In this document: piece by piece, positions 1-7,839 of the stretch
Layout: each line of letters begins with the position of its first letter
How positions within the stretch are numbered: the first letter of the stretch is position 1
Origin: Thermoplasmata archaeon
GTDB taxonomy: Archaea; Thermoplasmatota; Thermoplasmata; Thermoplasmatales; Thermoplasmataceae
Reading direction: 5' to 3'
Length of the DNA: 7,839 nt
NCBI GenBank assembly: GCA_021806345.1
Contig: JAJZXP010000320.1
Coordinates: 1 to 7,839 of the forward strand
Notes under the pieces: generated by a model
Databases searched by the model: none
What the model was told of the DNA's origin: nothing
What the model saw: the letters and a program-made list of their open reading frames with translations, nothing else
Program-made: the position numbers and the translations under genes

Positions 1-124
1 TCTTCACCTTTGTCTTACTATAAACTTTAACCCATTTCCATTCTTTAATCTTTTTCTGCTGATATCACAATATAGACTTGTTTATTTTCAAGCTTTTACT
101 TTTCTTAGGATCGATTAACATTGA

Positions 125-138
125 TCTGCTCCAGCAGA
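125..138 (-). terminator. Possible hairpin after IS3 orfB
   Basis: A perfect inverted repeat TCTGCT-CC-AGCAGA lies about 20 bases beyond the orfB stop on the minus strand. It could be a transcript-end hairpin or part of the IS3 end. There is no T-run right after it, so the assignment is weak. Confidence 0.2.
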
Positions 139-155
139 ATTTGGAACACTTTTCA

Positions 156-652
156 TTAATTCTCATCTGGTTTCGCCTCAATTTCATTTTTCTCGAATCT
201 TTCCCTGAATGCGTGATCATCCAGGAACCTCCTCCTGAATTCCTTTGGAGGAAGATAATCTATGGATGAATGCCTTTCCTATCTCTAAAGAGGCATAATG
301 GAAATCCTAGAACTCGTTTGGTCAGATATAGTCTGTCTTGATCGAGTTATGGAATGATTCAATGTCCTCCATTGTCCTCCGGAGTGTGCTTCTGTATGTA
401 TTCAAGCTTGATCTCCAGTAATTTCATGGCATCATTTGCCATACATGACCTGGAATAATGATATCCCTGCCATTCTTTTGTGAAACAGTCCTTGATGCAC
501 ATGAGATTGGTCATTCCTGACTCGGTTGGAATGTAAGTGATATCAGTTTCCCAGAGCTGATCAGGTCCAGTTGGTTTGAAGAGATTCCTTTTCTTTGTTC
601 GCCCTCTGTGTTTCGATGCAGGAAGGTTCATGTTGCTATCCTTAAGAACATC
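156..652 (-). pseudogene. IS3-family transposase OrfB, heavily deleted
   Basis: Remnant of the catalytic (rve/DDE) half of an IS3 transposase. The readable part runs MNLPASKHRGRTKKRNLF, then WETDITYIPTESGMTN with the first catalytic Asp, then CMANDA joined directly to MKLLEIKLEYIQKHTPEDNG, which carries the catalytic Glu. About 40-60 residues normally sit between those blocks, including the TDNG motif with the second Asp, so a deletion removed it near 425-432. The N-terminal HTH region is also missing: orfA's end runs straight into mid-orfB. An extra G near 368 shifts the frame into ESFHNSIKTDYI, followed by TGA (322-324) and TAG (307-309) where Trp and Arg are expected. Another deletion at 264-273 fuses the two copies of a short repeat. 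The C-terminus (SSIDYLPPKEFRRRF to IEAKPDEN) ends at the TAA at 156-158. It is dead beyond doubt. Confidence 0.85.
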
Positions 653-667
653 TCATGTTTCAGATCT

Positions 668-954
668 TCAAGAATCATCATCTTGACCTCCCTTGAAGCC
701 TTTTTTAAAAGCGTCTATGACCAGGCTCTGATCTCCGATGATCTTCTTCAGATCCTCGATCTCCTCGTCTCTCGAATCTGAATTCCCTCTCTGAGCCAGT
801 GCCGATTTTTCTCCCTGGATGAACTGTTCCAACACTTGCTCAGCTGTACGGGATATATGCCGTGCCTCCGGCATATTTCAGCCTGTGTCAAGTTCTCGGA
901 GAAGGATTCCATGACTATCTGGAACTTCTCGTCAGCCAAATATTTGGACTTCAT
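668..954 (-). pseudogene. IS3-family transposase OrfA, frameshifted
   Basis: OrfA of IS3 elements is the DNA-binding part of the transposase, with an N-terminal helix-turn-helix and a C-terminal coiled coil for dimerisation. The ATG at 954-952 is preceded by GGAGG seven bases upstream, which decides the start. The N-terminal part (MKSKYLADEKFQIV, then LTQAEICRRHGIYPVQLSK) is a classic IS3 HTH. Near 830-838 the frame changes. Restoring one G (tgttg to tggttg) gives LSKWLEQFIQ and joins the parts into a protein of about 95 residues. The second part, read from about 836 to the stop at 668, holds the EEIEDLKKIIGDQSLVID heptad segment and ends in acidic residues. As it stands the reading frame is interrupted. 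IS3 elements use programmed -1 frameshifting between orfA and orfB, but a shift inside the HTH-to-coil linker is not that, so it is a lesion or a sequencing indel. Confidence 0.82.
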
Positions 955-1013
955 GAAGATGCCTCCATGATCAAGAAAACTACTTTTCGCATACCCTTCA
1001 TGTATCTGTTTTT

Positions 1014-1021
1014 CTCTATAG
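1014..1021 (+). promoter_or_regulatory. Candidate TATA box for the IS110 non-coding RNA
   Basis: The plus strand has CTCTATAG at 1014-1021. Archaeal transcription starts about 25 bases after the TATA box, which here falls at about 1045-1049, the foot of the first hairpin of the candidate bridge RNA. The position is suggestive; the motif is short and unproven. Confidence 0.3.
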
Positions 1022-1027
1022 ATGTCA

Positions 1028-1045
1028 ATGAAAAAAGTTCTTAGG
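1028..1045 (+). repeat. Left copy of an 18-bp inverted repeat flanking the IS110 unit
   Basis: The sequence atgaaaaaagttcttagg is the reverse complement of the copy at 2350-2368, apart from one extra C there. It lies just left of the structured RNA, and its partner lies at the last codons of the recombinase, so the pair brackets the IS110 unit. Confidence 0.6.
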
Positions 1046-1048
1046 AAA

Positions 1049-1206
1049 ACGCTGCATGACGATGTAGCGTGAGAGTCGGAAGGCAGCAGAAATTTCACTT
1101 GGCCCATGAGGCCGCTCTTTAGATTCGCTGCCCTTCGTCTCGACATACTACCCTGAAACAAGGGTGAATAGAAGACTGTCGAGCATACTCCGACTCGAAC
1201 TCTCAC
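1049..1206 (+). ncRNA. Candidate IS110 bridge RNA
   Basis: A non-coding segment of about 158 bases ends nine bases before the recombinase ribosome site and folds well by eye. Hairpin 1: 1049-1057 pairs with 1062-1070 (9 bp including one G-U; loop GACG). Closing stem: 1073-1080 with 1189-1196 (8 perfect bp). Inside it, stem-loop A: 1082-1087 with 1127-1132, then a symmetric bubble of 13 bases on each side (1088-1100 and 1114-1126), then 1101-1104 with 1110-1113. Stem-loop B: 1139-1145 with 1177-1183, a bubble of 4 and 11 bases, then 1150-1154 with 1161-1165. Bridge RNAs of IS110-group recombinases have a 5' stem-loop followed by two bubble-containing loops, the target-binding and donor-binding loops, in this order and location. 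By that analogy A would be target-binding and B donor-binding. An alternative stem 1069-1076 with 1199-1206 competes with the closing stem. I could not match the bubbles convincingly to the flanks, so guide assignment is open. Confidence 0.65.
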
Positions 1207-1214
1207 AAACCACT

Positions 1215-1224
1215 AGGAGGTGGT
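1215..1224 (+). promoter_or_regulatory. Very strong Shine-Dalgarno of the IS110 recombinase
   Basis: AGGAGGTGGT is nearly identical to the complement of the archaeal 16S tail (GGAGGTGATC). No ATG, GTG or TTG follows at the usual 5-9 bases. The only in-frame GTG (1220) lies inside the site itself; ATC (1229) is at the right distance but is a very rare start. The original start codon may have been lost. Confidence 0.7.
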
Positions 1225-2370
1225 CAATATCTATATTGGTTTGGATGTACATAAACGTACCGTATATGTTACGGAAATGGAAGAGAATAAGATGTAAAGG
1301 AACAGTATGAGATAGCCAACAGTGAGGAATCATGGGAATCCTTCAGATCGAGGTATCCCGTATATGGAAACGAGATAGCCTTGGAAGTATCCACAACGGG
1401 TAAGTATGTTGCCAGGAAGCTTCGTGATCTCGGTTTCTCTGTACACCTGGCGGATCCTTCAAAACTATCTCTGATATTCAATACAGTAAAGAAAAACGAT
1501 AAGGAAGATTCATACAAGCTTGCAAAGCTTCTGAGGCTCGGTGAACTCCCTGAGGTACATCTACCCTCGAGAGAATCAGAGGATCTCCGATCCATAACGA
1601 GGTACAGAAAGTCGATAGGGGAGGAGATAACGATGCTGAAGAATCGTATACACGCTTTACTCTCCTCCTATGGAATAGCAATAGAGGCAACAGACATCTT
1701 CGGAAAGAAGGGTATTGCGGAGATCGAAAAGGCCTCCTCTCTCCTTTCCGAATCCGACAGATTCATCCTTTCCTCAACTCTGGAAAGGATATCGAATCTC
1801 TCCGATCAGGCGAGGGGTGTTGAGGATCAGATATCGAGGATGGTCCTCGGAAACAAGGATGTTGAGAGGATCATGACAATTCCGGGAATAAATGTATACT
1901 CCGCTGCCGTCGTAATCTCGGAAATAGATGATGTATCGAGATTCGCGACAAAGGAGAAACTCTCAGCTTATTCCGGCCTTGTACCGAGACAGGATCAATC
2001 CGGTAATCGGGACATAAGAGGGCATATAACAAAACACGGACCGTCAATGCTGAGATTCATACTCGTCAATGCAGCACACATCGTAATCAAGCACTCAAAA
2101 AGGTTGAAATCGAAATACCTCAGCATTGTACGCAGGATCGGAAAGAATCGGGCGATAGTTGCAATAGCAAGAATACTTATCGAGATGATATACACAATGC
2201 TGAAGAAAGGAGAGGATTTCGTTGACGAGATCGATGCCTTGACAGAGAGGAAGATGAATTCCATGCGTGTAAGGGCACAGAATCCTTCTCTGATAAAGAA
2301 ACTCGATGAGGTGATGAACTTTATAAAGAAGAAAAGGATAAGAGGTTCGCCTAACGAACTTTTTTCATAG
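1220..2370 (+). pseudogene. IS110-family DEDD recombinase, frameshifted
   Basis: IS110 recombinases excise and insert their element using a RuvC-like DEDD domain and a C-terminal Transposase_20 domain with a serine nucleophile, guided by a bridge RNA. The first frame (from 1220) reads NIYIGLDVHKRTVYV with the first Asp, and stops at TAA 1295-1297. The second frame, open from 1291, continues KEQYEIANSEESW and then ALEVSTTG with the Glu, and runs to 2370. Restoring one G (atgtaa to atggtaa) fuses them into about 383 residues, a normal family length. In that numbering the catalytic set is D9, E56, D94 and D97 (KNDKEDSYKLA). The C-terminal domain holds IPGINVYSAAVVISEI, the SGLVPRQDQSGNRDIRG block with candidate nucleophile S261, and GPSMLRFILVNAAH. 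All key residues survive, so inactivation is recent or the indel is a sequencing error. Translation of only the second part (for example from TTG 1381) would lack the first Asp. Confidence 0.88.
2350..2368 (+). repeat. Right copy of the IS110-flanking inverted repeat
   Basis: The sequence cctaacgaacttttttcat pairs with 1028-1045 over 18 bases with one bulged C (2355). It overlaps the 3' end of the recombinase reading frame and ends two bases before its stop. IS1111-group elements have sub-terminal inverted repeats; IS110-group elements classically do not, so the role here is open. The T-run could also act as a T-rich archaeal transcription stop. Confidence 0.6.
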
Positions 2371-2381
2371 AAGTATTATTA

Positions 2382-2531
2382 TCATGGTGTTCCAGTTCTA
2401 TAATGGTGCAGGGCACGTTTTTCGTACATAATAAGACTGTTTATATTGTTGTAATCCGCTCTTTTGAATTTCTTTTTAATTGTTTCAAAATCTATGTCAT
2501 AATGCTTGTTGTCTTCTTCACTATTGCACAT
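2382..2531 (-). CDS. Small 49-aa acidic/basic hypothetical protein downstream of the Mrr pseudogene
   Basis: An ATG at 2531-2529, preceded by GAGGG about three bases upstream, opens a 49-residue frame starting MCNSEEDNKHYDIDFETIKK and ending RALHHYRTGTP, stop TGA 2384-2382. It starts 11 bases after the stop of the Mrr pseudogene on the same strand, as a second operon gene would. The composition is protein-like: an acidic N-terminus, a lysine-rich central helix and an NINSLIMYEKRAL helix. I recognise no family. The last few codons lie near the probable right end of the IS110 element, so the frame may be the truncated start of a longer gene whose 3' part was separated by the insertion. It contains no stop mutations, unlike its neighbour. 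Confidence 0.45.
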   Translation of the reverse strand: MCNSEEDNKHYDIDFETIKKKFKRADYNNINSLIMYEKRALHHYRTGTP

Positions 2532-2542
2532 CGCCCTCGTTA

Positions 2543-3135
2543 TCAAAATGACTCGAAATAGTCTTTGTCTATCTCCTTCAAATTATAATTTGTCACAACT
2601 CGGACTCCAACATTATTCTGTGTCATGAGGTTTGCTAGCTTCAGACCGTCTATCAAGGTAATTTTATGGTCAGAATCCTTTTCAGAAAATTCTAAAGCTT
2701 CTTTAGGAAATTTAGCGTTGTTATGAATATGTCTTTTTCGGCCAGGTTACCAGACAATGCTCCGCTAAAATCTCTCCCTTCCTTTGCACTAACTGTCTGA
2801 TATTTGTCCCATCCTTTAGCTTGAAGATATATCTTGTCAAATCCTAATTTATCTTGCGATGCCTCACTATCTAGTCTTTCATCGCCAGGTAGACAAATTG
2901 CCTTAGTAATTTCCTCAAAATCCTTACAGTATCCCATCCGTATAACCACGTCTGTTATGATTCTTTCAAAGCCAGAAGATTTTGTGTTATGCAAAACCTC
3001 CCATAACTCTTCAGTAGGAACTCCCTCTCTCTTTTTAAAAATAGATTCAATCTCTTCATTTGAGATAAGAGCTGCAGATGATGAAATATTCCTACGAGTA
3101 ATGCCGATTAACTTTTTTTAGTATGTTTTAGTCAT
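2543..3135 (-). pseudogene. Mrr-type restriction endonuclease, inactivated
   Basis: Mrr proteins are type IV-like nucleases of the PD-(D/E)XK fold that cut modified DNA. The frame reads MTKTY, a TAA at 3120-3118 (codon 6), then KKLIGITRRNISSS through FERIITDVVIRMGY (the conserved helix before the catalytic core), a GDERLD block where Mrr proteins have GDGGIDG, then DKIYLQAKGW (Q-x-K motif, usually QAKRW) and FSGALSGNLAEKDIFITT. After NFLK the frame is lost near 2709. Restoring one C (FPKEALEF) continues the family's C-terminus (LIDGLKLANLMTQNNVGVRV) to the stop at 2545-2543. Intact length would be about 197 residues. Nonsense codon, frameshift and several substitutions at otherwise conserved Gly, Arg and Ser positions together indicate real decay rather than a single read error. 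Upstream, TATTAAG (3161-3167) sits 25 bases before the ATG. Confidence 0.82.
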
Positions 3136-3160
3136 TTAAGGTGAACAAAGGATGGAACTC

Positions 3161-3167
3161 TATTAAG
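3161..3167 (-). promoter_or_regulatory. TATA-like box of the Mrr pseudogene
   Basis: The minus strand reads CTTAATA, with 25 bases to the ATG at 3135 and no Shine-Dalgarno between. This spacing fits leaderless archaeal transcription. It marks the original start of the now broken gene. Confidence 0.35.
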
Positions 3168-3219
3168 ATCCTTGTAACTTATACTTTGTGGGAGAATGGG
3201 GTTGAAATGGGATTTAGTA

Positions 3220-4059
3220 TCACGATTTAGCATGAATTATTACAGCGTAAGAGCCCTTAGCTATTAATTCCTGGCGTTTGCTTTCAATGTCGGAGGCTCT
3301 CATTTTTCCAGAATCCCATATAATAGCCCCTACAGCCCCCTTATTCTCAAAGTGTTTTTGATAATCCTCTACTTGATTAACTAAACCTCTTAGTCTTTCT
3401 ATGCTTGTAGCTTTCTTTAATTCAATTGCGTATTTCCCATCTACTAAAATATCTATTCTATCACTTCCTATGGGGTACTGTCTTTGTGTAAACTTGTACC
3501 TCGTTTTTAGATAAATTTCTATCATTGATTCTAGCTCTCTTTCATCTCTAATCTTATATCGATAATTATCAAATTCATTTTTGATGTAATCTAATATTTC
3601 TTTCAACCTAGTATAATTTTCCTCCAATTTAGGCAAATAATCATTTGCTTGTACAGGTTTTGACTGTTTAGTAATATACTTCAGGGGACCACTAGTTGAC
3701 GATTGGTTGAAACCGTTCTTACTGTTAGGCGAGTGATTTTCTACTTCTTTGTATATGGTAATTCTAAATTTTTCAGCATAATTTTTCAAAACATCCAAAG
3801 AAACCCTAGATTCAATAAAATTAACATACACTCTTCTTGTTAAATCACGTCTTCGCTTTTCCCCTGTTATAGGGCTTATTTCGTAAGGTTCTGGCTCTTT
3901 ACCAATATATTCCTTGCAAATTTGTTTCATCTGGGATATTTCAAATTTTTCCAAAATTTCTTCCTTAGACTGTTTTAATTTTCGCTTCTCTTTTATTGAA
4001 TCTTGAATATTCTTAGTTGTTCCTTTTATAGACCCCTTAATCGTGTCCCATAGAGGCAT
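3220..4059 (-). CDS. PD-(D/E)XK nuclease-family protein
   Basis: A 279-residue protein with no signal peptide or membrane segment. The N-terminal 35 residues are lysine-rich and helical. Residues about 36-102 hold two helical blocks (EKFEISQMKQICKEYIG and FIESRVSLDVLKNYAEKF) that look like a small SAP-like DNA-binding unit; this is inference. Residues 103-145 are a polar linker. The catalytic core is at 165-275: an E-rich helix (RDERELESMIEIYL), then SDRIDILVDGKYAIELKKA giving D203 and E213-x-K215, then Q229xxxY233. D-(E)xK plus QxxxY is the pattern of RecB/Cas4-like and many defence nucleases. GAIIWDSGK and YAVIIHAK are the following core strands. All key residues are present, so it should be active. 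The ATG has no Shine-Dalgarno but a TATA-like box 21 bases upstream. It lies between a dead Mrr gene and transposase debris, with a radical SAM gene and a GHKL ATPase further upstream. Cleavage target unknown. Confidence 0.75.
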   Translation of the reverse strand: MPLWDTIKGSIKGTTKNIQDSIKEKRKLKQSKEEILEKFEISQMKQICKEYIGKEPEPYEISPITGEKRRRDLTRRVYVNFIESRVSLDVLKNYAEKFRITIYKEVENHSPNSKNGFNQSSTSGPLKYITKQSKPVQANDYLPKLEENYTRLKEILDYIKNEFDNYRYKIRDERELESMIEIYLKTRYKFTQRQYPIGSDRIDILVDGKYAIELKKATSIERLRGLVNQVEDYQKHFENKGAVGAIIWDSGKMRASDIESKRQELIAKGSYAVIIHAKS

Positions 4060-4080
4060 AAAAGTGTACTTCTTAGTAAG

Positions 4081-4086
4081 TAATAA
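4081..4086 (-). promoter_or_regulatory. TATA-like box of the PD-(D/E)XK nuclease gene
   Basis: The minus strand reads TTATTA, 21 bases before the ATG at 4059, preceded by AAGGA. No ribosome site follows, which fits a leaderless or nearly leaderless transcript. Confidence 0.35.
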
Positions 4087-4108
4087 TCCTTATGTTATTC
4101 GGACATTG

Positions 4109-4351
4109 TCAATTCCCTGTTGATAAGTACCAATGATACCAGTAGGATGTCCTTAGAAGACCATCCTTTGTCTTGAACCTATGCTTGAACAGCCATGACT
4201 GTACCGAGAAGTGCTGTTCTGCCTTGTCTGAGGTCTTCTCTACTTCAGGATTGTCCAGGTATAGGAAGACCTCTTTTCTGTTCTTCTTTACAAAGTTGAG
4301 AGGTAAGAATTTCATTGAAGATGCTCCATCAATTATCAAAAGAAGTGCCAA
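4109..4351 (-). pseudogene. C-terminal fragment of a DDE-type transposase
   Basis: About 75 residues without a credible start (the only in-frame initiator is TTG with no ribosome site). The segment FLPLNFVKKNRKEVFLYLDN, then VEKTSDKAEQHFSVQSWLFKHRF, then GLLRTSYWYHWYLSTG resembles the end of archaeal DDE transposases, in which a Thr/Asn-rich turn precedes the catalytic Glu (here the E of AEQHFS). I cannot name the IS family from this piece. The two catalytic Asp residues and the whole N-terminal half are absent, so it is debris. It sits in the gap upstream of the nuclease gene, where it has probably separated that gene from former neighbours. Confidence 0.55.
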
Positions 4352-4479
4352 ACCGGGATGAAATTGTCAGGCACAACAGACTGACCAGTTACTATTCTTT
4401 TTCTCATGTAATACCCTGAGATCCACATATTTCCTTTATTAAGTCGCTCTTTCATGCTAAATTTTTCCTTTGTAGGCAT
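4336..4479 (-). CDS. 47-aa ORF of unknown nature, possibly a gene remnant
   Basis: An ATG at 4479-4477 opens a frame beginning MPTKEKFSMKERLNKGNMWI, followed by YYMRKRIVTGQSVV and PDNFIPVWHFF, ending at the TGA 4338-4336. A second in-frame ATG lies at 4455. No ribosome site is seen. The 3' end overlaps the start of the transposase fragment in another frame, which suggests a truncated gene joined to the transposon remnant rather than a complete small protein. No family recognised. It lies 57 bases beyond the radical SAM stop on the same strand. Confidence 0.3.
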   Translation of the reverse strand: MPTKEKFSMKERLNKGNMWISGYYMRKRIVTGQSVVPDNFIPVWHFF

Positions 4480-4535
4480 AGAACATAGAAAGGCTCAAAA
4501 AACGATCCAAGTATCACATTGTTGACACTATTGCT

Positions 4536-5675
4536 TTAATAGACTTCTGGAGCCATTGCCGGCACCATGTTCTTTGTCTTCGGCTTTAGTGGCCTCAACT
4601 CCATCGCCTCCTCAAAGTTCATTGCGGATGCGATCTTATCCACGAAACCCCTGTACGATACAAATGTACCTGCATAGCCAAGCACCCTTCTGGCATCCGC
4701 GACCATCTCAAGCTGATCTTTAGTCCACAGCGGCGAAACATATGAGTTTCTTTCCAGGGCATCTAGTGGTATGAAACGCATCGGATATGCAGATACACCC
4801 CATCCCATCAGGTCCTGCAGCCTGTTCAAGAAATCTATTGGCGTGTCCCCCTTCCTGTGCTTGTCGTCCCAGAAGTTGTATAGCATGTAGAATATCAGGT
4901 TCTTCCTTCTGTACCCTGCCCCGCTTAACAGATCGATCGCTCTCTTCACGAATGGCCCCTCCCACGGCCAGTCATAGGCCATGTGTATGCTCTTCGATCT
5001 GACATCGGCTAGCAGCCCAGCGGTCTCTGCGTCTATGAGCCTGGCGTCGAGACCCTGGTTGAAGTCCGCTTCGATGCCATTGTCTATGAGTTCCCTTAGC
5101 ATGGACTTCGCGTAAGGCGATGCTAGGAAGTTGTTGTCCCATATAGTCACCTTCTTGTGAGATGGATGCATGAGATCGATTATGGATGTTTTTTCATCCC
5201 TCATGCCGCCCTCTATCTTTGGAACGACACAAAAAGGACATTTTCTTACACATCCCCTTGATGTGAAGACTATGGAACTGTCCCATTCTTTCCACTTATC
5301 AATAGTCTTTAAAATATCGTATGCCGGCATCCTGCTTTCCGCCTTTGGATGCAAACCCATGTGAACGTTCACAAACGGATAGCGCTTTTTGATGTGTTCT
5401 GGCATAAGAGTTGCATATATTCCTCCAACATTGATTCTAGCTTCTGGAAATAAGGCATGGTAATATCCTATAGCTTGGTGCACTGGCTTCCAAGCGTAGG
5501 TAAAGAGTGAAGTAATATCAATTTGCCTTATTTTTTCTATTTTATCTGTACTTCCGTCCGCTCCGACCACATAGTAAACTTTGTTCCCGTATGCCCTATA
5601 ATAAGAAGCAAGCTTTAATAAACCAAGGGGGGGGTACCGGGAATAGTAATTAGGTTCAACCAGTAGGATTTTCAT
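4536..5675 (-). CDS. Radical SAM protein with cobalamin-fold-like N-terminal domain
   Basis: A 379-residue soluble enzyme. Radical SAM proteins use a [4Fe-4S] cluster to split S-adenosylmethionine into a 5'-deoxyadenosyl radical. The cluster motif is at 139-149 (SRGCVRKCPFC; C142, C146, C149). The N-terminal domain (1-120) has the B12-binding-like fold pattern MKILLVEPNY, YPPLGLLKLASYYR and GGIYATLMPEH, but lacks the DxHxxG cobalamin-ligand motif, so cobalamin may not be bound through the usual His. Later blocks WDNNFLASPY (179-188) and DFNQGLDARL (204-213) are typical of this B12-domain radical SAM superfamily. The C-terminal 100 residues are unassigned. It is not a viperin: that family's CNYxCxFC-type motif is not what is seen. 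A run of eight C (minus strand) spans codons 14-17. The 3' half is clearly more GC-rich than the 5' end. A TATA-like box lies 24 bases before the ATG. Substrate unknown. Confidence 0.85.
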   Translation of the reverse strand: MKILLVEPNYYSRYPPLGLLKLASYYRAYGNKVYYVVGADGSTDKIEKIRQIDITSLFTYAWKPVHQAIGYYHALFPEARINVGGIYATLMPEHIKKRYPFVNVHMGLHPKAESRMPAYDILKTIDKWKEWDSSIVFTSRGCVRKCPFCVVPKIEGGMRDEKTSIIDLMHPSHKKVTIWDNNFLASPYAKSMLRELIDNGIEADFNQGLDARLIDAETAGLLADVRSKSIHMAYDWPWEGPFVKRAIDLLSGAGYRRKNLIFYMLYNFWDDKHRKGDTPIDFLNRLQDLMGWGVSAYPMRFIPLDALERNSYVSPLWTKDQLEMVADARRVLGYAGTFVSYRGFVDKIASAMNFEEAMELRPLKPKTKNMVPAMAPEVY

Positions 5676-5699
5676 CTTAATATAAGCTAGGAGTTATTG

Positions 5700-5707
5700 A
5701 TTAATAA
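5700..5707 (-). promoter_or_regulatory. TATA-like box of the radical SAM gene
   Basis: The minus strand reads TTATTAAT, with 24 bases to the ATG at 5675 and no Shine-Dalgarno. A second AT-rich stretch (CTTATATTA) directly before the ATG is too close to serve as TATA. Confidence 0.35.
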
Positions 5708-5716
5708 GGATTTCTC

Positions 5717-5723
5717 AAAAAAA
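5717..5723 (-). terminator. T-run downstream of the GHKL ATPase gene
   Basis: Seven consecutive T on the minus strand, 23 bases beyond the ATPase stop and before the TATA box of the next gene. Archaeal RNA polymerase stops at such runs without needing a hairpin. This suggests the ATPase and radical SAM genes are separate transcripts. Confidence 0.35.
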
Positions 5724-5746
5724 GCAATTTTGGATCCAATATTGTA

Positions 5747-7588
5747 TCAAGGTAGGGGTCCAAAGCTGTCTCTCGGCTTACTGCGTTCAATTATTCTTGA
5801 AAATAGGTCTATAGTGCAACCTAGCTCAATGAAAAATAGATCCCTATCTTCTTTGCTCATCTTGTCATACCATTCTTTTTTAAATGTATCTGAATGATGC
5901 TTTTCACCGTTAACGAAGATCTGGTATAAAGCCAAAATCGCCTGCCCAAAGTTCGCGTTGATCAGATAGGTATATTTCTGGTTGTTTGTATCATTTGGGC
6001 TGTCATTGTAAATTTTAAGTGGATCTATTATGAAAACCTTCGCTTTTTGTTTGATCGATTTTAGATCGCCAGGGGGCTGTATTGCAAAAACTTCGCTCAC
6101 TAATTTATTGAATTCCTCTTTTTTTATTCCAGCAAGAGATGAGAGCTTCTCCTCTAACTGGGAAAACAAATTGCGTTCCAACCTCTTTTCAGGATTCTTG
6201 ATTTTTTGAGAAATCGGATTTAGGATTTCTTTAGGTAGTATCTTTTGAAGTATATCGGCAGGTGAGGATTCTTCAACATCCGCCTGAACTTCAACTTCTT
6301 TGAGTAATCCTTCTATCTTTTTCAGTTCATCTTCTTTCCTTTTTCTCAGTACTTCGCTGTAAGACCTCAGGGTTTCTTCTTCGCTTCCTGTTTGGCTTCC
6401 CTCAATGGCCTTTTTGATCCTTTTAAGCTCCTTTTTGGCCTCCTGCTTTGATATAGTCTTATTTTTTATTTTATCTTCTATGTCTGCAAGTTTCTTCCGT
6501 TTATCAGTGCTTGATTTCTGCCTGTTATTCTTTTGAAGCTCTTCTATAAGCTTCGCTACCTTTCCGAATAGTTCACCTGCATGACCTGTCAAGGTCTCAA
6601 AATTGTTTCTTCCGGCATTTTCCCTTATATTACTGTCCAGTACGTGTATTTCACCGTAATTCCAGAAGTTGTACTTTCCTGAATAGAGCCGCGAGACTGT
6701 TATTTCTGGTGATCGCTCGTCTCCTATGGTCATTCCTTTAAGTTTAAAAATGAGGCCACGATTCAAACGATCGTATTCGTTCTTTTTACGGTTTTCGATT
6801 TCTGCATTTTCCTGAGACGTTATAGCCCAGAAGACAAATAAAGCCGTTTCGTCATCAGCCTTATACAAACCTGAGACGAAGGAATCTGGATCGAATATAC
6901 TTTCATCAGTGGGCGGTCTATATAATTTTTTACCGTTGAAAAATATCTCAAAATCAGGTTCCTCTATGCCATTTTTCTTTAGTACTTGTATAATTTTTTC
7001 CTTAAATATTGAATCTTCCCTTAACGGCAACGGTAAAACTCTAATCAATTTATTCTTCAGTCGGTCAGGGGTAAAAAAGGTTTTTTGATTTTGTTCAGTA
7101 CCTAAGAGCGTTATCTGTGTTCCTGGTTCGAAGTCAGGGTCATCTATCTCGGTGATTTCCGTAGTTCCGGATTCGAGAATTTCTCTTGCAGAAGGCCTTG
7201 GCACACTCAAATATCTGCTCCTTATCTCTTCGGATAATATCTCAACGGTAAGCTTCTTTTCTTCAGACTTCTTGGTGGTGATTATTATCCTTTTAAAATT
7301 TGGAATGCCACTGTAAATGCCTATACCTCTCCATCCTATTTCTGAGGGGGGTTTCTTCGAAGCTCCTAAAGAAAGAGCATTTGTCAATTCGTTTTTATCC
7401 ATACCCATCCCGTAATCTCTGATGACGATTTCAGCATCATTGTTCTGGTAGCTAATTTCGATTTTTTTTGAGCCAGAATCTATAGCGTTTTGGATATACT
7501 CTCTCATAGAATTAGAATTACCGTCATATATACCACTGGTCAGTGTTTCAATAATACTCCCAAAAGTCACTTCACCCGGAAATTTCAT
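5747..7588 (-). CDS. GHKL (Hsp90/MORC-like) ATPase with coiled coil
   Basis: A 613-residue cytosolic protein. I chose the ATG at 7588-7586 over a TTG two codons earlier because it fits the TATA spacing. Residues about 5-190 form a GHKL ATPase: N-box REYIQNAIDS (E30, N34), G1 box DYGMGMD (D58, G60, G62), LGASKK (74-79) and G2 lid IGWRGIGIYSG (84-94). All ATP-binding residues are present. This is the HATPase_c_3 type seen in Hsp90, MutL, MORC and several anti-phage proteins, not a sensor kinase, as no phospho-acceptor His domain is seen. Residues about 200-340 are a probable second domain of the GHKL-transducer kind (inference). Residues about 344-443 are a highly charged coiled coil. The C-terminal part (about 445-613) is unassigned, with an aromatic-rich stretch (LINANFGQAILALYQIF) and a long helix near the end. 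Likely an ATP-gated dimeric clamp acting on DNA or protein. The AT-rich box 18 bases upstream suggests leaderless expression. Confidence 0.8.
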   Translation of the reverse strand: MKFPGEVTFGSIIETLTSGIYDGNSNSMREYIQNAIDSGSKKIEISYQNNDAEIVIRDYGMGMDKNELTNALSLGASKKPPSEIGWRGIGIYSGIPNFKRIIITTKKSEEKKLTVEILSEEIRSRYLSVPRPSAREILESGTTEITEIDDPDFEPGTQITLLGTEQNQKTFFTPDRLKNKLIRVLPLPLREDSIFKEKIIQVLKKNGIEEPDFEIFFNGKKLYRPPTDESIFDPDSFVSGLYKADDETALFVFWAITSQENAEIENRKKNEYDRLNRGLIFKLKGMTIGDERSPEITVSRLYSGKYNFWNYGEIHVLDSNIRENAGRNNFETLTGHAGELFGKVAKLIEELQKNNRQKSSTDKRKKLADIEDKIKNKTISKQEAKKELKRIKKAIEGSQTGSEEETLRSYSEVLRKRKEDELKKIEGLLKEVEVQADVEESSPADILQKILPKEILNPISQKIKNPEKRLERNLFSQLEEKLSSLAGIKKEEFNKLVSEVFAIQPPGDLKSIKQKAKVFIIDPLKIYNDSPNDTNNQKYTYLINANFGQAILALYQIFVNGEKHHSDTFKKEWYDKMSKEDRDLFFIELGCTIDLFSRIIERSKPRDSFGPLP

Positions 7589-7606
7589 TATCAATCATCT
7601 TATAAA

Positions 7607-7613
7607 TTTTAAA
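7607..7613 (-). promoter_or_regulatory. TATA-like box of the GHKL ATPase gene
   Basis: The minus strand reads TTTAAAATTTATAA here; TTTAAAA ends 18 bases before the ATG at 7588. A small hairpin, TGCCT (7615-7619) with AGGCA (7626-7630), lies immediately upstream and could be an operator, but a 5-bp stem is weak evidence. Confidence 0.35.
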
Positions 7614-7630
7614 CTGCCTCGAGTAAGGCA

Positions 7631-7839
7631 TGGCGACGATAGTCTTGCATGATACAGATATCATATCTTATTGATATAATGCCATATCTATATTTACATT
7701 TTTGTCTTTGAAGACATTGCCAATTTTTAGTTGAGGGAATCTGTAGAGATTAATTAACTTAGGAAATGAGTGTATTATTAGAGAAGTAAGTGAAACGGTT
7801 TTTAACTATTTGAATGATTGAACCAATGTATCATAGACT
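7631..7839. other. AT-rich DNA with no supported gene
   Basis: No tRNA, clear repeat array or start-codon-bearing frame longer than about 10 codons is visible. A 45-codon stop-free stretch exists on the minus strand (about 7668-7804), reading LYRFPQLKIGNVFKDKNVNI in its middle, but it has no start codon and no ribosome site. It may be a gene remnant or chance. Confidence 0.4.

Follow-up and report, generated by a model that had tools for sequence, protein, structure and literature searches.

The 7,839-nucleotide stretch analysed here (contig JAJZXP010000320.1, positions 1 to 7,839, of a Thermoplasmata archaeon; hereafter the window) raises the question of what is encoded at positions 1049-1206, and which DNA the product would read. 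The first-pass annotation proposed a candidate bridge RNA, similar in position, size and order to that of IS621. On the basis of sequence comparison, this segment very probably specifies the bridge RNA carried by an IS110-family element of a Thermoplasmatota archaeon, with guides in the IS1111 direction and the RNA upstream of the gene. In what follows, the IS110 direction denotes the guide order of IS621 (left flank read by the 5' guide and right flank by the 3' guide), and the IS1111 direction the opposite order.

The ends of the element were placed by homology, using three element copies in genome G218 (L046, L057 and L059), an exact empty site for the element at locus L057 and eleven uninterrupted copies of an IS3-family element. 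The G218 copies are more than 99 % identical to one another but have different flanks, which defines the ends by sequence comparison. The element and its parts are as follows:

1020..2371, plus strand: IS110-family element, the AG core being included once, on the left side
1020..1027, plus strand: left terminal extension, AG-ATGTC-A, predicted to pair with the 5' donor guide
1028..1040, plus strand: left subterminal inverted repeat, ATGAAAAAAGTTC
1220..2370, plus strand: IS110 recombinase gene, with a GTG start assigned by eye and the frame broken near 1283-1292
2356..2368, plus strand: right subterminal inverted repeat, GAACTTTTTTCAT
2369..2373, plus strand: right extension AGA plus core AG

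The window ends thus read AG-ATGTC-(A)-ATGAAAAAAGTTC on the left and GAACTTTTTTCAT-AGA-AG on the right, with a perfect 13-bp subterminal inverted repeat and unequal extensions, the left one being 8 bp in the window and 7 bp in most relatives. Two other genomes (G352 and G300) carry the joined flanks of the L057 element intact (242/242 bases) around a single AG, and two further genomes carry them at 83-85 % identity over 239 bases. This intact single-AG site implies insertion at a two-base core without target duplication. An equivalent search for L059 in 15 genomes yielded no intact site across the join.

The insertion point in the window falls within an IS3-family element, and the IS110-family element is nested in this IS3-family element of a Thermoplasmatota type. 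Eleven of twelve IS3 loci were aligned (L119 was left out), and all eleven run uninterrupted through the site, carrying AA, not AG, at the core position. The IS3-family element spans approximately 142-2394, with 8-bp ends TGGAACAC/GTGTTCCA read by eye, and stretches matching it occur in 20 of the 117 genomes of the order. Its remnants at 300-960 on the minus strand have broken reading frames with pieces of HTH_Tnp_1 and rve domains, the IS110 element being situated in the IS3 end.

The recombinase contains both domains of the IS110 family in the wide sense, PF01548 (DEDD_Tnp_IS110; 8.3e-14) and PF02371 (Transposase_20; 2.5e-22) of Pfam, and the window copy is frameshifted, as its relatives are one base longer near 1283-1292. 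In the Thermoplasmata 387 proteins are related to it at E <= 0.001, with identities to the window recombinase of 57-91 % among the best 120 of these matches. P0040, among the relatives listed, is already named an IS110 RNA-guided transposase by NCBI, and the NCBIfam model of that name (NF033542) matches P0001, P0022 and L030. Loci for comparison were taken from 15 of 58 contig stretches, in which a relative was confirmed, from a further set of genomes (14/14), and from the genomes with a match in the class (21 of 400) and the order (22 of 117); a subgroup 3 query matched 16 of those 117. Searches of viral contigs confirmed no relatives, and searches of plasmids gave no DNA match. Three subgroups could be distinguished in the recombinase tree, with support of 99/96 for subgroups 1 and 2 (which hold the window), 100/99 for subgroup 3 and 98/97 for all three together. 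In the left ends inspected, the RNA region lies upstream of the recombinase throughout the family. There is no room for a downstream RNA, since the stop codon reaches into the right end in the window and only 26 bases follow it in L057.

Between the left end of the element and the recombinase gene, the RNA region comprises the following parts:

1049..1070, plus strand: 5' hairpin of the putative bridge RNA, 9 bp including one G-U
1073..1080, plus strand: closing stem, 5' strand, 8 bp, GAGTCGGA/TCCGACTC
1082..1132, plus strand: stem-loop A, predicted target-binding loop, 13/13 bubble
1139..1183, plus strand: stem-loop B, predicted donor-binding loop, 4/11 bubble
1189..1196, plus strand: closing stem, 3' strand, pairing with 1073-1080

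All the pairings that had been read from the sequence in the first-pass annotation were recovered at these positions. The minimum free energy of the fold at 1049-1206 is -60.5 kcal/mol, and 200 dinucleotide shuffles average -40.9 +/- 3.5 (z -5.57; 0/200 as good). Single folds of relatives are alike (L003, z -6.6; L061, z -3.5; L027, z -4.2). The closing stem forms in the single folds of these three members, one per subgroup, with different letters in subgroup 3. A small hairpin is located beside the ribosome site, just downstream of the RNA region. A scan of the region against Rfam gave no family at the Rfam cut-off, and a permissive scan gave two chance-level matches.

Covariation among relatives, which had been named as the check on these stems, was evaluated in an alignment (A2) of 22 sequences from subgroups 1 and 2, including the window, taken from 28 extracted left-end regions; L007 and five subgroup 3 sequences were left out. 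Paired cells (90.8 % vs 85.5 % in shuffled alignments), two-sided cells (64 vs 21.6) and the covariation score (0.277 vs 0.163) were each matched by none of 500 shuffles, and slid versions of the structure scored at most 0.094. Changes on both sides were found in 14 of the 40 pairs (10.6 in shuffles, with 4/500 reaching 14), while the number of further pair types carried no signal (39 vs 39.4; 364/500). The covariation is strongest in the 5' hairpin and the outer A stem, and is absent from the outer B stem (two-sided changes in 0/7 pairs). The closing stem, which the first-pass annotation regarded as a possible distinct archaeal architecture, forms in the three single folds noted above but covaries only weakly (two-sided changes in 2/8 pairs), and RNAalifold paired its strands with other partners on the alignment.

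The bubble of stem-loop A was expected to hold the target guides, which were delimited as follows:

1090..1099, plus strand: predicted 5' target guide, ending with core CT, reverse complement of the right target, window fit 4/8
1115..1122, plus strand: predicted 3' target guide, with core AG at its end, reading in the left-target sense, window fit 5/6

In the relatives, likewise, CT is mostly the last dinucleotide on the 5' strand of loop A and AG on the 3' strand. The guides of subgroups 1 and 2 were scored against the flanks of their own element and of other elements, and a shift of one guide base either way was permitted to the same extent in the null. Read as its reverse complement, the 5' guide matches the right flank at a mean of 4.85/8, compared to 3.34 for the guides of other elements (n=20), and the 3' guide matches the left flank at 3.08/6, compared to 1.80 (n=24), with 0 of 200,000 draws as good on each side. 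On both sides, guides from the element itself fit its flanks better than guides from other elements do, and loop A is accordingly read as carrying the target guides. Collapsing the guides to 14 and 16 clusters under a strict rule (looser clustering chained most guides together) left the IS1111-direction fit at 0/100,000 each. An earlier test with a fixed anchor, which misplaced the core where an extra A or a shifted loop occurs, gave 0/20,000 and 1/20,000 for the same order and subgroups. The flank test omitted L007, which nearly duplicates L006; L051, whose left end is truncated; L053, which represents the locus already covered by L070; and loci in which the left end or the pair of ends could not be used, for example L044, L054, L060, L067-L069, L072 and L075; a usable right flank was absent in 4 of the 24 subgroup 1 and 2 loci. 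Right flanks score at least 5/8 in 13 of the 20 cases, with clear examples in L003 (predicted CCATCATAC, found CCATCATGC) and L061 (predicted GTATTGGAC, found GTATTGAAG). The remaining seven, against a chance mean of 3.34, score at most 4/8 (4 in the window, 3 in L045 and L048, and 2 each in L006, L047, L052 and L062). The comparison of bubbles with flanks thus holds across the relatives and for the left flank of the window (5/6), but its right flank fits poorly (4/8 vs 3.3 by chance).

These fits bear on the simplest form of the original proposal, namely a plain IS110-group bridge RNA with the guide order of IS621. The RNA is located upstream of the gene with its target loop ahead of the donor loop, the recombinase falls outside the IS1111 clade, and the IS621 order does occur in subgroup 3. 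In subgroups 1 and 2, however, the IS110 direction performs no better than chance (41,273 and 184,064 of 200,000 draws), and the donor guides described below fit the opposite ends, making this reading very unlikely for the window.

Two observations on individual targets were made. The recombinases of L001 and L008 are 90 % and 60 % identical to that of the window, and these two elements, whose target guides are the same, are inserted at a similar left target (TTTGATTAATGTTTTAAG) in different genomes. Their targeting may be shared or converged, and provides natural evidence of shared targeting. In L013, the sequence AGGATACAG, expected as the right target, is found approximately 17 bases to the left of the left end.

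Stem-loop B was similarly expected to hold the donor guides:

1142..1149, plus strand: predicted 5' donor guide, GACATACT, matching the reverse complement of AGATGTC at the left end except for one skipped base
1168..1174, plus strand: predicted 3' donor guide, ATAGAAG, identical to right end ATAGAAG (2367-2373)

Across the relatives the guides in this bubble follow the element ends, according to match counts made by eye from the sequence rows and without a null. The left end ATGTC is matched by GACAT in the RNA in 12/16 cases, variant left ends are tracked (AGGTC by GACCT in L005; GTGTC by GACAC in L048), and the subgroup 2 left end AAATC is matched by GATTT in 4/4. On the right, the subgroup 1 end CATAGAAG (ATAGAAG) is matched by ATAGAAG in 14/15 and the subgroup 2 end CATAGGAG (ATAGGAG) by ATAGGAG in 4/5. 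Mismatches occur between the 5' donor guide and the left end in L002, L009, L025, L047, L012 and L052, and between the 3' donor guide and the right end in L006 and L058. Part of the 5' fit could be structural, since this guide overlaps the outer B stem. The position, two-loop layout, covariation and guides of both loops together bear out the bridge-RNA reading at the level of sequence. The guide fits also weigh against a cis-acting leader RNA that would control expression of the recombinase without guiding recombination. The 3' end of the RNA just upstream of the ribosome site, beside the small hairpin, would suit such a leader, but a leader gives no reason for variable loop bases to fit the flanks and ends of each copy, and this explanation is considered extremely unlikely. 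A double role as leader and guide is possible.

The likeness to IS621 proved to be partial. As in the IS110 group described in the available part of PMC11208160 (Durrant et al. 2024), the left end carries the RNA ahead of a DEDD recombinase, and a 5' stem-loop is followed by the target loop and then the donor loop, with the core dinucleotide in the guides. By contrast, the 5' guides of IS621 read the left side in that account, while those of subgroups 1 and 2 read the right. Inspection of IS621 by eye agrees with the IS110 direction (left flank ATCAGGCCT, RNA ATCGGGCCT, then GCGTAG for the right CTACGC). The bottom-strand (left) guide comes first in subgroup 3 but not in subgroups 1 and 2. The subterminal repeats are 13 bp here, compared to just 2-3 bp in that account, the IS110 group being characterised by short repeats or none, and a closing stem does not feature in the description of IS621 in the same part of PMC11208160. 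In the accessible part of PMC11187229 (Siddiquee et al. 2024), the subterminal inverted repeats of the seekRNA elements of the IS1111 group (such as ISEc11 and ISPa11) are usually 11-13 bp, with 7 and 3 bp extensions, as is the case here (8 bp at the left in the window; range of repeats for the group 7-17 bp), and the top-strand guide precedes the bottom-strand guide, as in subgroups 1 and 2. In almost all IS1111 elements covered there, however, the RNA is downstream of the gene, and IS1111 recombinases form a separate clade from the window family. An end-repeat search of ten reference loci gave matches with two mismatches each in L082, L089, L090 and L092, of which only that in IS4321 (L082) looked real.

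The element could alternatively be a true IS1111-group member whose RNA has moved upstream. The 13-bp repeats, the 7 and 3 bp extensions in most relatives and the guide order would all agree with this, and three exceptional IS1111 elements (ISMtsp17, ISHvo10 and ISAcp5) have an extended non-coding stretch upstream of the gene or flanking it on either side, in the part of PMC11187229 available. Movement of the RNA between ends is proposed in the portion of PMC11208160 at hand. In the recombinase tree, however, a 100/100 clade contains IS4321, IS5075, ISShdy1 and an unnamed Klebsiella element, and a 98/95 split separates it from the window family. The window recombinase is placed outside the IS1111 clade in this modest test, which included 11 reference proteins, several long branches and some family rows with stops or wrong-frame pieces, and true IS1111 membership appears unlikely. 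A bridge RNA of mixed IS110 and IS1111 build, in a family with both guide orders, is well supported by the sequence comparisons. A literature search, excluding preprints and covering few subscription journals (best 20 of 156 in one listing), returned no guide-order flips within a family and no Thermoplasmatota bridge RNAs.

The second guide order occurs in subgroup 3, a sister subgroup (41-48 % identical) with the same fold and the RNA still upstream of the gene. Its ends, CT-ACT-ATGAAAGAAG on the left and CTTCTTTCAT-GACAC-CT on the right, correspond to those of subgroup 1 exchanged, and the borders agree in two copies of one genome with different flanks. Empty-site searches for L049 and L070 (117 genomes each) gave no intact site across the join, and hence no subgroup 3 empty site was seen. 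Among the six usable insertions (L026, L027, L030, L039, L049 and L070), the IS110 direction fits both the right flank (4.17/6 vs 1.90; 0/200,000) and the left flank (4.67/8 vs 3.51; 597/200,000), while the fit in the IS1111 direction is unsupported (165,254 and 40,343 of 200,000). When collapsed to three guide clusters, the right side remains at 0/100,000 and the left is not significant (18,862/100,000). The donor motifs, compared by eye, fit the swapped ends (GACAC in 5/6, ATAGTAG in 6/6), and the right end reversed, AGGTGTCATGAAAGAAG, is close to the left end of L048, AGGTGTCATGAAAAAGG. The simplest account is that the RNA-recombinase block appears to have been inverted between its inverted repeats. 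Convergence, or exchange with another element, could have produced the swapped ends without such an inversion, and the small sample of six insertions in three clusters, with its collapsed left-flank result, leaves some room for this. The resemblance of the reversed right end to that of L048 and the agreement of the RNA motifs with the swapped ends argue against it, and it is regarded as improbable. In L006 and L007, from two genomes, subgroup 1 and subgroup 3 elements abut head to head around position 2740 of the locus, with an AG core in common.

If the block was inverted, its orientation would set the guide order, which would not have to imply a different mechanism; the seekRNA authors, in the part of PMC11187229 available, suggest that the opposite order might imply different mechanics for IS1111 and IS110. 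Two haloarchaeal IS110 elements on Natrinema plasmids (L095 and L096) combine an upstream RNA with 12-bp subterminal repeats and the IS1111 guide order, and subgroup 3 is therefore perhaps the derived state; the branch joining the family and the haloarchaeal outgroup is weak (86/67). In these elements the 3' guide fits the left flank at 7 and 8 of 9 and the 5' guide fits the right at 6 and 8 of 11, scores that do not constitute a test since the guides were chosen by eye while the flanks were visible. They differ from the window family in their TG core and loop sequences, and the right end was not found in four of the six haloarchaeal loci inspected. It is tentatively suggested, at somewhat less than even confidence, that the orientation of the block between the ends sets the IS110 or IS1111 guide order, with 5' guides always reading the long-extension end and 3' guides the short one, that an inversion turned an ancestral IS1111-type order into the IS110 type, and that the window lineage persists as a link between the two major groups. 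Both would then operate by a single mechanism. Inversion between inverted repeats would also offer a simple evolutionary route between guide orders, and the occurrence of both orders in one archaeal family, with the same fold and RNA position, makes the question of mechanics directly testable.

For the window element, we infer from these comparisons that the RNA is transcribed and would form a complex with the recombinase. Its 5' hairpin would be followed by a closing stem enclosing the two stem-loops; loop B would contact the left end through its 5' strand and the right end through its 3' strand, pairing around the core. RNA and recombinase would hold the junction of an element circle, with the right end joined to the left end, beside the target, and catalysis would swap strands at the core, leaving the target unduplicated. 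The RNA would thus read in the IS1111 direction relative to the ends, though it lies upstream of the gene. The family adds a candidate Thermoplasmatota bridge RNA with a closing stem to the pool for programmable recombinases.

Further coding regions were noted on the minus strand of the window. A fragment of a type IV restriction enzyme resembling Mrr is located at 2692-2994 (PF04471, 1e-11; PADLOC mREase_IV, 1.8e-20). A 379-aa protein at 4536-5675 has weak B12-binding and radical SAM matches below the cut-off. The product of 5747-7594, 615 aa long, contains an HSP90-like ATPase domain (PF13589) and matches the PADLOC model MzaB weakly (7.2e-7).
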